From the NCBI RefSeq assembly GCF_000333955.1, contig NZ_CAPS01000120.1, forward strand, positions 1 through 64,000: a DNA stretch of 64,000 nucleotides. Reading direction: 5' to 3'. The number at the start of each line of letters is the position of its first letter. The stretch's first letter is position 1. Source of the stretch: Rhodococcus sp. AW25M09 (lineage in GTDB: Bacteria > Actinomycetota > Actinomycetes > Mycobacteriales > Mycobacteriaceae). The position numbers and the translations under genes are program-made. The notes under the pieces were generated by a model. The model made no database searches, was not told where the DNA came from, and worked only from the letters and a program-made list of their open reading frames with translations. Below, piece after piece: positions 52,381 to 64,000 of this stretch.

Positions 52381-53472
52381 CTAACGCGCATCGCTGCTGC
52401 TGCGACGCTCCTCGACGGCGGCAGCCAGCACGGCCAATTGTGTTGCCGTAGTGTCCCAGTCGAGGCAGGCGTCGGTGATGGACTGCCCGTACACCAGATC
52501 GTCGCGGTGGCCGAGTTCGAGATCCTGACGGCCCGCCACCAGGAAACTCTCGAGCATCAGCCCGACGATGCCGTGTTCACCGGCTGCGACCCGGGCGGCC
52601 ACGTCGGTGACGACGTCGACCTGCTTGTTGTGGTCCTTGCGACTGTTGCCGTGGCTGGCGTCGATGATCACTCGCTCCGGGAGACCCGACTTACGCAGTC
52701 GCGCAACGGTGTCGGCAACCGATTCGGCATCGTAGTTCGGTCCGTCGACGCCGCCGCGAAGGATGACGTGGCAGTCCGGGTTTCCGACGGTGCGGATGAG
52801 CGCCGCCTGACCGTCGAGATCGGTTCCGGGGAACACGTGGCTCGCCGCGGCGGCGCGGGTGCCGTCGACCGCCACCTGGATGTCGCCCTCGGTGGAATTC
52901 TTGATTCCCACCGGCATCGACAGCGCGCTGCACAGCTGGCGATGGACCTGGCTCGCCGCGGTCCGGGCACCGATCGCGCCGTAGCTGACCAGGTCCGCGA
53001 TGTACTGCGGGGTGATCGGGTCGAGGAACTCGCACCCGACCGGCAGACCGAGCGCAGAGATGTCGAGCAACAGTTGACGTCCCACCCGCAGGCCGGCGTT
53101 GATGTCGAAGCTGCCGTCGAGGTGCGGGTCGTTGATCAAGCCCTTCCAGCCGAGGGTCGTACGGGGCTTCTCGAAGTAGACGCGCATGACGATGTGCAGT
53201 CGATCGCCCAGTTCGGACGCCGTGGCCGCCAGGCGTCGGGCGTAGTCGAGGGCAGCGTCGGTGTCGTGCACCGAACACGGGCCGACGACGACGATCAGTC
53301 GATCGTCACGGCCGTCGAGAACGTCGACGACACCGGCGCGGCCCGTGCGGACGGTGGCCGAGATCGCGTCGTCCACCGCATGTTCGCGGCGCAGCACCGA
53401 CGGCGACGCCAGCGGACTGATACTGATCGTTCGCTGATCGTCGAGAGATGGGGTGTCGAGAGAGACTGTCAT
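52381..53472 (-). CDS. aroG: 3-deoxy-7-phosphoheptulonate (DAHP) synthase, class I
   Basis: 363-aa enzyme condensing phosphoenolpyruvate and erythrose 4-phosphate, the first step of aromatic amino-acid synthesis. It is the class I (AroG/AroF/AroH) type, not the class II enzyme of M. tuberculosis. Motifs are VVVGPCSVHD, MRVYFEKPRTTLGWKG, CEFLDPITPQYIADL, GIKNSTEGDIQVAVDG, VIIDASHGNSRKDHNKQ and GIVGLMLESFLVAGRQD. The leader upstream encodes an aromatic-rich peptide with alternative hairpins, pointing to attenuation. ATG at 53472 follows AGGAAC. Confidence 0.93.
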   Translation of the reverse strand: MTVSLDTPSLDDQRTISISPLASPSVLRREHAVDDAISATVRTGRAGVVDVLDGRDDRLIVVVGPCSVHDTDAALDYARRLAATASELGDRLHIVMRVYFEKPRTTLGWKGLINDPHLDGSFDINAGLRVGRQLLLDISALGLPVGCEFLDPITPQYIADLVSYGAIGARTAASQVHRQLCSALSMPVGIKNSTEGDIQVAVDGTRAAAASHVFPGTDLDGQAALIRTVGNPDCHVILRGGVDGPNYDAESVADTVARLRKSGLPERVIIDASHGNSRKDHNKQVDVVTDVAARVAAGEHGIVGLMLESFLVAGRQDLELGHRDDLVYGQSITDACLDWDTTATQLAVLAAAVEERRSSSDAR

Positions 53473-53625
53473 GAGAGGGCGTTCCTGTTCTCAGGCCGGC
53501 TCCTCATGCTCCACGCGCACTTCGAGCCGGTCTGTATCCGGCTCGTGGGGTGGGGGTCAGCGCATGGCGTCGCTGGCTGACCCACCCGGGGCCGGCCTGC
53601 TAAACCAGAAATACGTGCGCTGCAT
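53473..53625 (-). promoter_or_regulatory. Attenuator leader of aroG
   Basis: On the minus strand the order is: peptide start (53625), YFWF codons (53602-53613), segment A GCAGGCCGGC (53600-53591), peptide stop (53557), segments B CGAGCCGG (53545-53538) and C CCGGCTCG (53530-53523), and segment D GAGCCGGCCTGA (53502-53491) just before the Shine-Dalgarno AGGAAC (53486-53481). B pairs with C (8 bp), C with D (7 bp), and A with D (9 bp), so the helices exclude one another. A ribosome stalled on the aromatic codons would cover A. This is the layout of aromatic attenuation. Confidence 0.75.
53557..53625 (-). CDS. aroG leader peptide, 22 aa with Tyr-Phe-Trp-Phe
   Basis: ATG at 53625 encodes MQRTYFWFSRPAPGG followed by SASDAMR and a TGA at 53559-53557. 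Tyr, Phe, Trp and Phe stand next to each other, all three end products of the pathway begun by aroG. In a 22-residue chance peptide of this GC content such a run is very unlikely. The ribosome-binding site is weak (TCCTTTT before the ATG), which is the main doubt. Confidence 0.72.
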   Translation of the reverse strand: MQRTYFWFSRPAPGGSASDAMR

Positions 53626-53686
53626 GAAAAGGACGCTAGCAGATGCACGGGTCGCGATTGCAATCCCTGTGCGCCATCCGGGTTCA

Positions 53687-53705
53687 GGCTAGGGTTGCCT
53701 ACCTA
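53687..53705 (+). promoter_or_regulatory. Candidate IdeR/DtxR iron box
   Basis: GGCTAGGGTTGCCTACCTA resembles the iron box TTAGGTTAGSCTAACCTAA, with the core TAGG-N4-CCTA intact, and stands 27 bases before the start of a siderophore-binding protein gene. Several positions deviate, so I treat it as tentative. Confidence 0.4.
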
Positions 53706-53731
53706 TGCCCGCCCCGGCGAAAGAGAACGAA

Positions 53732-54778
53732 GTGAAACGTCTGCTCCTGGCCGCAACGATCGCCACGGTCACCGCCCTGACCATCGCCGCATGTGGCGGG
53801 CCCGCCGAGCAGACGGCCACTCCCTCCACCGGCACGGCATCGGCCACCGACGATGCAGCCGTCGACGCACCGGGGCCGACCGGCATCCCCGACGGTATGG
53901 GCTCGGGAGCCGCCGACGGGGTGTTTCCCCGCACCGTCGGACATTTCGGCGGTTCGACCGATATCGCTGCCGAACCGACAAGGATCGTTGTCATCGCCAC
54001 CGGTCAGCTCGACGCGGCCCTGACACTGGGCGTCGTACCCACCGGTGTCGCCTACGGCAGCGGTGCCGAACTGGTTCCGGACTACATCACCTTCTCGTTT
54101 CCCCAGTACGCGGATCGGATGACGCAATTCGTCGACGTCGGCAACCGGCTCGATGTCGACATCGAAGCCATCGCCGCGACAGAACCCGACCTGATCCTGG
54201 CGAACGAGACCGGCTCGGAGGACATCTACTCGACGCTCTCGACCATCGCGCCGACCGTGCTCACCGAGGGCACCGGAGTGAACTGGAAGCAGGACTTCCT
54301 CCTTCTCGCCGACGCGCTCGGTCGGACCGAGCAAGCCCAGAGCTTCCTCGACACCTTCACCACCGATGCTGCGGCACTGGGTAATTCGGTCGCAGGCAGT
54401 GGTGGCGCACCCACGGTCTCGTTCGTGCGTTTCACCGCAGATCGTGCGCGCGTGTTCGGCATCGAGTCGTTCGCCGGATACGTCGCGTGGGACGCCGAGC
54501 TGGCTCGACCGGAAAGTCAGCAGTTCGACGCAACCTCACAGGACTTCAGCGAGGAAGAGATCCAGCTGGCCAACGCCGATTGGGTGTTCGTATCGAGCCA
54601 GGACGCCGGAGCCGATTCGAGCGCGGCGTCGTACACCACCAACCCACTGTGGACCGGAATGAGCGCGGCGACCGAGAATCACATCGTGCGAGTGGACGAC
54701 GACCCGTGGTATCTCAATGCGGGTCCGACGGCAGCAACCATCGTGCTCGGCGGCCTGAAGAACGCCCTGCAGGGCTGA
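53732..54778 (+). CDS. Iron-siderophore ABC transporter substrate-binding lipoprotein
   Basis: 348-aa lipoprotein with signal peptide and lipobox (TIAAC, Cys at about residue 21), then a Thr/Ala-rich linker and a FepB/FhuD-type periplasmic-binding fold: PTRIVVIATGQLDAALTLGV, LDVDIEAIAATEPDLIL, FLLLADALGRTEQAQ. It binds ferric siderophore outside the membrane for an ABC importer; no permease or ATPase gene is nearby, so it must work with components encoded elsewhere. GTG at 53732 is chosen because VKRLLLAATIATV begins a proper signal peptide. Confidence 0.86.
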   Translation: MKRLLLAATIATVTALTIAACGGPAEQTATPSTGTASATDDAAVDAPGPTGIPDGMGSGAADGVFPRTVGHFGGSTDIAAEPTRIVVIATGQLDAALTLGVVPTGVAYGSGAELVPDYITFSFPQYADRMTQFVDVGNRLDVDIEAIAATEPDLILANETGSEDIYSTLSTIAPTVLTEGTGVNWKQDFLLLADALGRTEQAQSFLDTFTTDAAALGNSVAGSGGAPTVSFVRFTADRARVFGIESFAGYVAWDAELARPESQQFDATSQDFSEEEIQLANADWVFVSSQDAGADSSAASYTTNPLWTGMSAATENHIVRVDDDPWYLNAGPTAATIVLGGLKNALQG

Positions 54779-63385: not shown

Positions 63386-64000
63386 ATGGCGAGGGATCTG
63401 ACACAGCTCGAGCTTCTGCAGGAGCTGGTGCCCACTGCCGAGGACAACGTGAACCGTCACATCACCATGGCGCGGGAGTGGCATCCACACGATTACGTGC
63501 CGTGGGACGAAGGCCGCAACTTCGCCGCTCTCGGTGGCCAGGACTACGACCCCGAGCAGTCCAAGCTCTCCGACGTCGCCCAGGCCGCGATGATCACCAA
63601 CCTGCTCACCGAGGACAACCTGCCCTCCTACCACCGTGAGATCGCCGAGAACTTCTCCCGCGACGGCGCGTGGGGAACCTGGGTCGGCCGCTGGACCGCC
63701 GAGGAAAACCGGCACGGCATCGTCATGCGCGACTACCTCGTCGTCACCCGCGGCGTCGATCCCGTGGCTCTCGAAGAAGCCCGCATGATCCACATGACCA
63801 ACGGGTTCGCCTCGCCCGCCGGTTCGCAGACAGGCCTGCTCCACTCGGTCGCGTACGTGACGTTCCAGGAGCTCGCCACCCGCGTCTCGCACCGCAACAC
63901 CGGCAAGGTCTGCGACGATCCCATCGCCGACCGCATGCTCCAACGCATCGCCGCCGACGAGAACCTGCACATGATCTTCTACCGCAACATCACCGGCGCA
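63386..64000 (+). CDS. desA1: Acyl-[ACP] desaturase (DesA1-like), truncated by window end
   Basis: Soluble di-iron desaturase that puts a double bond into acyl-ACP chains, needed for mycolic or unsaturated fatty acids. The first 205 residues are present, MARDLTQLELLQELVPTAED..., with iron-ligand motifs WTAEENRHGIVM (EENRHG) and AADENLHMIFYR (DENLH). ALGGQDYDPEQSKLSDVAQ and TEDNLPSYHREIAENF match mycobacterial DesA1 closely. ATG at 63386 follows GGAGG. The C-terminal third lies beyond the window. Confidence 0.92.
   Translation, partial: MARDLTQLELLQELVPTAEDNVNRHITMAREWHPHDYVPWDEGRNFAALGGQDYDPEQSKLSDVAQAAMITNLLTEDNLPSYHREIAENFSRDGAWGTWVGRWTAEENRHGIVMRDYLVVTRGVDPVALEEARMIHMTNGFASPAGSQTGLLHSVAYVTFQELATRVSHRNTGKVCDDPIADRMLQRIAADENLHMIFYRNITGA

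Follow-up and report, generated by a model that had tools for sequence, protein, structure and literature searches.

The class I DAHP synthase gene aroG of Rhodococcus sp. AW25M09 is preceded by a short leader ORF with four consecutive aromatic codons, Tyr-Phe-Trp-Phe (YFWF), and this aromatic leader is real and under selection. Judging from sequence comparison, it probably acts as a ribosome-sensing attenuator, which would turn aroG on when charging with Tyr, Phe or Trp is short. DAHP synthase sets the flux towards all aromatic amino acids and many natural products. Comparison backs the ORF with its run and frame, the link to aroG, a probable start beside a -10 box, and two helices, P0 and GGGUGG:CCACCC (P1); our inferences concern ribosome stalling, the direction in which expression responds, and the output. 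P0 and P1 have bases in common and are thus mutually exclusive, both coevolve, and this rival pair is absent from the preliminary description of the locus. Features are collected in the table below, and "the window" denotes the whole analysed stretch of 64,000 nucleotides.

A frame of 22 codons containing the YFWF codons directly before aroG, as described earlier, is indeed present; 84 nt separate the end of the leader ORF from the aroG ATG at 53472 on the reverse strand. In 19 long ORFs of the window, aromatic codons make up 6.3% of all codons, such that four consecutive ones are expected at about 1.6e-5 per codon position. Chance frequencies aside, the real test is conservation, and the leader model matches in 37 of 37 genomes of the same genus (see below). 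No NCBIfam or Pfam model matched the leader peptide, and no Rfam family reached its gathering score in the leader region or in 11 related loci; a relaxed Rfam scan of the leader region returned just two unrelated families (E 1.8 and 1.9). Elsewhere in the window, 63704-63771 (-) matches the Rfam ASdes family, named a TB sRNA, with 70 bits, and 42014-42214 (+) matches a c-di-AMP riboswitch with 57.4 bits.

Features of the aroG leader region, in order of window coordinates
Feature	Coordinates	Strand	Description	Basis
aroG	52381..53472	(-)	class I (aroFGH type) DAHP synthase, 363 aa	PF00793, TIGR00034
Shine-Dalgarno site of aroG	53483..53486	(-)	AGGA	sequence
Segment e (D)	53492..53502	(-)	GAGCCGGCCTG	three core columns identical in 68/68 aligned leaders (alignment A1)
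Segment d (C)	53523..53530	(-)	CCGGCTCG; 3' arm of B:C, alternatively pairs with D	C:D in relatives
Segment c (B)	53538..53545	(-)	CGAGCCGG; 5' arm of B:C	core pairs kept
P1 3' arm	53548..53553	(-)	CCACCC, just past the leader stop codon	coevolution and state folding
Leader ORF	53557..53625	(-)	22 codons, MQRTYFWFSRPAPGGSASDAMR then stop	sequence; conserved model match
P0 3' arm (segment b)	53575..53583	(-)	GGGTCAGCC	coevolution and fold of cut RNA
P1 5' arm	53581..53586	(-)	GGGTGG	pairs with CCACCC, permutation p 0.0046
P0 5' arm	53589..53597	(-)	GGCCGGCCC; includes segment a, CCGGCCC, 53595-53589, overlapping segment A	a:b coevolution
Aromatic run	53602..53613	(-)	TAT TTC TGG TTT, Tyr-Phe-Trp-Phe, presumed sensor	sequence; codon choice in 107 loci
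-10 box	53633..53638	(-)	TAGCGT, 7 nt before the leader start codon	sequence; TANNNT in relatives
Possible -35 element	53658..53663	(-)	TTGCAA, 19-nt spacer, tentative	by eye

Close relatives have retained the aromatic codons rather than lost them. R1, a covariance model built from 39 sequences and spanning the leader up to and including the B:C hairpin, gave a single match per genome in all 37 same-genus genomes and matches in 163 of 401 genomes of the family. For 108 R1 matches the position was compared with that of aroG; every one shares the strand of the gene and precedes its aligned start by 48-102 nt. Across the class, R1 matched 6 of 296 genomes, of which five belong to the family of the window. 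In a first set of 110 loci, for which the best 80 of 591 related loci were kept, the 29 same-genus loci (L082-L110) all carry the run in a short ORF before aroG. The same holds for all Rhodococcus, Nocardia, Antrihabitans, Amycolatopsis and Pseudonocardia loci named (L002-L011, L030), where the leaders of Antrihabitans and Pseudonocardia read YWF rather than YFWF. L051, without a leader by pattern, was dropped from the leader set, and L204 and others were omitted from alignments A1 to A3 for redundancy or fit.

A set of 107 loci was collected by codon pattern, with some loci present twice, and hence describes conservation rather than testing it; it comprises 103 YFWF and 4 YWF leaders. Tyr is encoded by TAT in 105 of the 107 and the final Phe by TTT in 102, compared with 23 of 145 Tyr codons and 21 of 229 Phe codons in the 19 long ORFs of the window. 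The aromatic codons of the leader are thus mostly the rare, A/U-ended ones. The leader stop lies in an identical CGCTGA context in 106 of the 107 loci, the peptide tail PAPGGS is kept together with the run, and indels within the ORF in alignment A2 are mostly multiples of three.

Transcription probably starts at or beside the leader ATG, upstream of 53602 and not downstream of it, as the spacing of the -10 box suggests. In 106 of the 107 pattern-collected loci, some of them counted twice, the leader start is preceded by a TANNNT box at a distance of 6-8 nt, which in 92 is exactly 7 nt; this argues for a leaderless ORF. A consensus scan of the region found no sigma-70-type promoter. For the 57 leaders of the terminator type introduced below, starts were picked using the promoter as a criterion, so that their 57/57 carries no evidential weight. 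A divergent ORF, 53705-54778 (+), begins 79 bp from the leader; its start resembles a lipoprotein signal (LTIAACGG), and its promoter and that of the leader would have the intergenic region in common.

The preliminary description proposed four pairing segments, A to D. Segment A is GCAGGCCGGC (53600-53591); B and C were taken as the 8-bp pair given in the table because C then pairs with D too. All of these segments and pairings are present in the window: the 8-bp B:C, A:D as CAGGCCGGC:GCCGGCCTG (9 bp), and C:D as CCGGCTC:GAGCCGG (7 bp). D was placed next to the Shine-Dalgarno site, and does end 5 nt upstream of AGGA. In relatives, the seven core pairs of B:C are kept in 38-39 of 39 aligned sequences, with no covariation. 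Complete pairing is possible for C:D in 56 of 65 relatives and for A:D in 44 of the 65, while at least 6 of 7 pairs of each can form in 62 of 65. Segments c, d and e were found by sequence patterns, that for D fixing four of its seven positions; their conservation and pairing counts are therefore partly fixed by the search, and for this reason the conservation of D is taken from alignment A1. At position 2 of D the window has A, as do 12 of the 65 sequences by implication of the counts; this base leaves C:D intact and disrupts A:D. In other members of the genus the base is G.

Coevolution was assessed by permutation of matched against mismatched partners among 24 YFWF representatives less than 86% identical, a test that ignores phylogeny. 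By this test, none of B:C, C:D and A:D coevolves. The suggested alignment of relatives thus upheld the aromatic run and yielded no compensatory signal for the suggested helices: the pairings can form, and B:C is nearly invariant, yet they are neither the sole alternatives nor the best supported ones. For P0 (a:b), by contrast with these, none of 5000 permutations was as good as the observed partners, and P1, whose 5' arm draws on the loop and one arm of P0, reached p 0.0046. Further support comes from the extension of P1 into B:C, CCGGCCCCGGGUGG with CCACCCCGAGCCGG (p 0.0054), and from UGGUU:AACCA within P0 (p 0.013); the base of P0, the inner part of P1 and pairing of the aromatic codons with the Shine-Dalgarno region revealed no coevolution in the 24 representatives. 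RNAalifold predicted 19 pairs for the YFWF type, none with changes on both sides; alignment A1 misplaces CCACCC between clades, and column counts were therefore replaced by the segment-based tests. One a:b pair of P0 is C.A in the window.

In ribosome-free RNA cut at the end of B:C, P0 is dominant in all six loci folded: the codons that follow the start are paired to those preceding the stop, as GGCCGGCCC is to GGGYCGGUC. Such self-folding of the leader ORF can explain its near-invariant synonymous positions. In full-length ribosome-free RNA, P0 is weak (a:b 0.30); L159, L204 and L205 were left out of this folding and of results derived from it. Ribosome states were folded with the ribosome as an unpaired footprint in 65 relatives (L100 left out). 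The mean probability of P1 is 0.09 with a ribosome at the stop codon versus 0.80-0.83 with one stalled in the run, and P1 is gained by the stalled over the finished ribosome in 57 of the 65. It is already at 0.60 in the full-length ribosome-free RNA, and only in 21 of 65 does stalling add more than 0.5 to this value. Toggling of B:C, considered as a general switch, was rejected: the hairpin persists across most folded states and drops by more than 0.5 in just 16 of the 65 relatives and in 3 of the 24 representatives, the window not being among them. In RNA ending just after the hairpin, B:C averages 0.88-0.99 and on average never toggles.

The proposed mechanism reads as follows. Transcription would begin at or beside the leader ATG, and a ribosome would load directly on the leaderless ORF and read Tyr-Phe-Trp-Phe. 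Before or without translation, the nascent leader could fold on itself as P0, excluding P1. With all three charged tRNAs ample, the ribosome would reach the stop codon, where its footprint over CCACCC means that P1 could not form. If any of the three were short, the ribosome would stall in the run and leave GGGUGG and CCACCC free; P1 would form and aroG would be expressed. In the best case, the helix would be extended to CCGGCCCCGGGUGG : CCACCCC-GAGCCGG, across the 5' arm of B:C. The earlier suggestion of a single switch that reads Tyr, Phe and Trp charging together is well supported at the sequence level: the run is conserved, the leader adjoins aroG, and it is akin to Corynebacterium aroR.

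Related leaders with another layout, here called the terminator type, occupy the same position in sister genera. YWRF leaders were found in Mycobacterium, Dietzia, Tsukamurella, Williamsia, Kribbella and Catellatospora loci and a YWRY leader in a Streptomyces, while the 11 genomes of a genus that is presumably Corynebacterium (g3) show an FYF leader in eight cases, a QYY leader in one and none by eye in two; these last two, L218 and L220, have class I aroG without a recognisable leader by eye. Terminator-type leaders have in common a segment a, in most cases GGCTCCGG, that directly follows the run, and its complement, segment 3, in most cases CCGGAGCC, located past the stop codon. Downstream of segment 3 comes a hairpin that is usually followed by a U-tract. 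L017, L051, L218 and L220 were left out of the segment comparison. The same permutation test, again ignoring phylogeny, was applied to 34 terminator-type representatives: for each of a:b, a:3, 3:5 and the terminator stem, 0 of 5000 permutations did as well, and pairing of the run with the leader end gave p 0.004. In this type, 12 of 19 predicted pairs show changes on both sides. The peptides of these sister leaders differ, and yet the helices persist. In L041, L027 and other loci, segment 3 has two partners, a and a segment 5 past the terminator. The a:3 helix adjoins the terminator without overlap, and in the two loci whose states were folded the terminator forms in every state tried.

A covariance model of the terminator type (R2) matched 151 of the 401 family genomes at E up to 1e-4. 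R1 matches 12 genera and R2 14; the two sets are disjoint, and their union is exactly the 26 of 31 genera with class I aroG. Added up, R1 and R2 account for 314 genomes versus 323 with class I aroG, a comparison of sums and not genome by genome. Across the class, R2 matched 47 of 296 genomes. Among the 32 of these 47 matches whose DNA was inspected, 18 adjoin class I aroG, 10 are weaker and lie before other genes, and the four weakest (L253-L256, E 2.6e-4 to 9.3e-4) are taken as chance. The ten (L243-L252, nine of family f18 and one of f21) place a terminator-type leader before genes other than class I aroG: the whole downstream protein of L243 tested as a partial type I DAHP synthase fused to chorismate mutase, the downstream stretch of L246 as chorismate mutase, and the rest were judged by eye; in several, a PHP-domain polymerase-like gene then follows, again by eye. 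The terminator-type leader seems to follow the pathway rather than a single gene family. Many proteobacterial class I aroG genes also have upstream short ORFs with long aromatic runs, e.g., FYFYFFWYLRPLADREG or FYFWYYGFPMPLAEEG, and conserved tails of their own (L022, L029, L032, L055, L058, L059, L064, L069 and others).

The sensor being shared, the question of output divides two readings. A scan at the window leader found no terminator. At least six T within the 10 nt after B:C occur in one of 65 YFWF relatives (L100 left out), and a stretch of at least six T in ten anywhere between B and D in 7 of 65. In the one relative, L130 (257-424), seven of the 10 nt after B:C are T, and another YFWF leader, L204 (358-540), has six T after another hairpin; both are possible intermediates between the YFWF and terminator types. 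According to passages of a review, mycobacterial terminators predominantly are devoid of U-tails and Rho-dependent termination is dominant, and the same review cites titles in conflict over the requirement for a U-tract. We lean towards relief of transcription termination at B:C, by a terminator devoid of a U-tract or by Rho in the leader, because a true terminator occupies this site in the sister leaders and C. glutamicum aroR-aroF is reported to respond at the transcript level; a transcriptional output is in our view the likelier candidate, ahead of a translational one.

Translational attenuation, the scheme of the preliminary description, would use the same sensor with access to the aroG ribosome-binding site as output: after read-through of the leader, A:D would form by the Shine-Dalgarno site, and a ribosome stalled on the run would cover A and free D. 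We consider this scheme rather unlikely, although several observations speak for it. D is conserved in A1 and lies about 31 nt from aroG (sd 3.7), complete A:D and C:D are frequent in the counts given above, and 64 of 65 relatives have no U-tract right after B:C. The spacing from D to the start codon, however, does not discriminate between the outputs, as that from the hairpin to D is equally constant (sd 3.7 versus 3.5). In the window, Shine-Dalgarno accessibility rises from 0.10 in naked RNA to 0.52 with a Tyr stall, and in the naked full-length fold A:D is prolonged by aromatic codons pairing with the Shine-Dalgarno region; a ribosome at the stop codon, however, already gives 0.40. Across 57 relatives (8 of 65 without GGA near the start were dropped), just the Tyr stall is significant (0.34 naked to 0.46, p 0.0017), with 0.41 for the first Phe (p 0.067), 0.35 for Trp and 0.36 for the second Phe, and no stall is significant in 23 representatives. 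In the 34 terminator-type representatives, the aromatic run and the Shine-Dalgarno region gave p 0.045. Aromatic codons as an evolved anti-Shine-Dalgarno strand were nevertheless rejected: the duplex is no better than with shuffled Shine-Dalgarno regions (median fraction 0.495, just 2 of 24 at or below 0.05; 9 of 66 sequences without GGA near the start dropped), and 32 of 43 other Shine-Dalgarno regions of the window pair with the aromatic codons equally well or better. Translation attenuation is cited for M. smegmatis cysteine genes in a passage of PMC13236596. Against the A:D scheme count the A:D pairing, which shows no coevolution, and the A at position 2 of D, which breaks it. Neither B:C nor the Shine-Dalgarno site changes much across most predicted states, and masking of the Shine-Dalgarno site as output is weakly supported.

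It is improbable that the short ORF instead encodes a trans-acting peptide, as is reported for peTrpL of Sinorhizobium meliloti, with the aroG link reflecting co-expression only. Part of PMC7298713 reports such a trans-acting leader peptide, and the PAPGGS tail is kept along with the run; this tail is, however, encoded by the coevolving P0 arms, so that the RNA can explain its conservation, which furthermore extends through synonymous positions, and the peptides of the sister leaders differ though their helices persist. A most improbable reading, in which the palindromes are sites for a DNA-binding regulator and the short ORF is incidental, could appeal to the nearly invariant palindrome B:C and to an IclR-type repressor, LtbR, which a passage of PMC11802643 reports at C. 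glutamicum trp and aro promoters, but it is at odds with the conserved start, frame, stop and run, with corresponding helices altered on both sides in the sisters, and with the position of B:C some 90-115 bp downstream of the -10 box.

Returning to the attenuator, the earlier remark that such devices are known for aromatic genes is borne out by C. glutamicum, where the kind has been described. Its aroR-aroF attenuator was reportedly the subject of Neshat et al. in 2014. Both it and the window leader are aromatic-run leader ORFs directly before a DAHP synthase gene, and in both types segment a, a feature defined from relatives, pairs locally or with segment 3 past the stop codon; most leaders of genus g3 have GGCTCCGG as segment a and CCGGAGCC as segment 3, like other terminator-type leaders. 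In contrast, the window leader has an added Trp, other helix sequences (CCGGCCC) and no U-tract terminator; because this hairpin is absent, we regard it as a variant of the aroR-aroF type rather than a plain member. Classical trp, phe and his leader attenuators (Rfam Trp_leader and kin) combine end-product codons, a leader hairpin and a rival helix, and the window leader would work alike, though no Rfam family matches its region at gathering score. Leaderless polycysteine ORFs of mycobacteria, short ORFs said to be amino-acid-responsive attenuators (Canestrari et al. 2020), by title have the leaderless short ORF in common, while cysteine is sensed there.

Passages of PMC11802643, PMC4046766 and PMC3890552 describe a short Phe-Tyr-Phe leader ORF before the DAHP synthase gene of C. 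glutamicum and its control by ribosome stalling; according to the first, aroR acts at the transcription level under Phe limitation, and Tyr is without effect. The M. tuberculosis ilvB1 leader, as given in part of PMC13236596, has a run of regulatory codons, LVVI, and folds into either a terminator or an antiterminator, each excluding the other. It is likewise an actinobacterial leader ORF with several regulatory codons, but for branched-chain amino acids and with a Rho-independent terminator. Seliverstov 2005 (PMC1262725), in the section concerned, reports no conserved RNA structures upstream of the operons for phenylalanine and tyrosine in those Actinobacteria that it covers, and the word Rhodococcus is absent from its text. 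In a reannotation of S. lividans, the portion on leader peptides gives eight, those for aromatic amino acids being for Trp only. Searches of the open-licence PubMed Central literature brought up no recognisable description of a Rhodococcus or Nocardia aroG leader, and only C. glutamicum aroR as a described case; the earlier statement that a single YFWF leader is not known to be described in this genus fits this outcome.

Elsewhere in this genome lie a class II DAHP synthase gene, two trpE-like genes and a prephenate dehydratase gene. A pattern scan of the stretches around them turned up no aromatic leader like that of aroG in the roughly 500 nt preceding their matched parts; three aromatic runs farther off or downstream were judged incidental. 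Since none precedes the other four, the aroG leader may be the only aromatic leader among these genes. On a wider scale, we tentatively suggest as a possibility that an aromatic-leader RNA is an old companion of DAHP synthase in Actinobacteria, and that the Rhodococcus/Nocardia/Amycolatopsis branch kept the sensor and swapped the output, the U-tract terminator being lost in favour of a U-less or Rho-dependent terminator or of control at translation start. If true, the branch would amount to a natural experiment in how a ribosome sensor for three amino acids exchanges its output. In each of the 26 gene-bearing genera of the sampled family, class I aroG comes with a related leader. The leader would be a control point in Rhodococcus and Amycolatopsis, and would offer a way to study the integration of three amino acids by one leader and the evolution of attenuator outputs.
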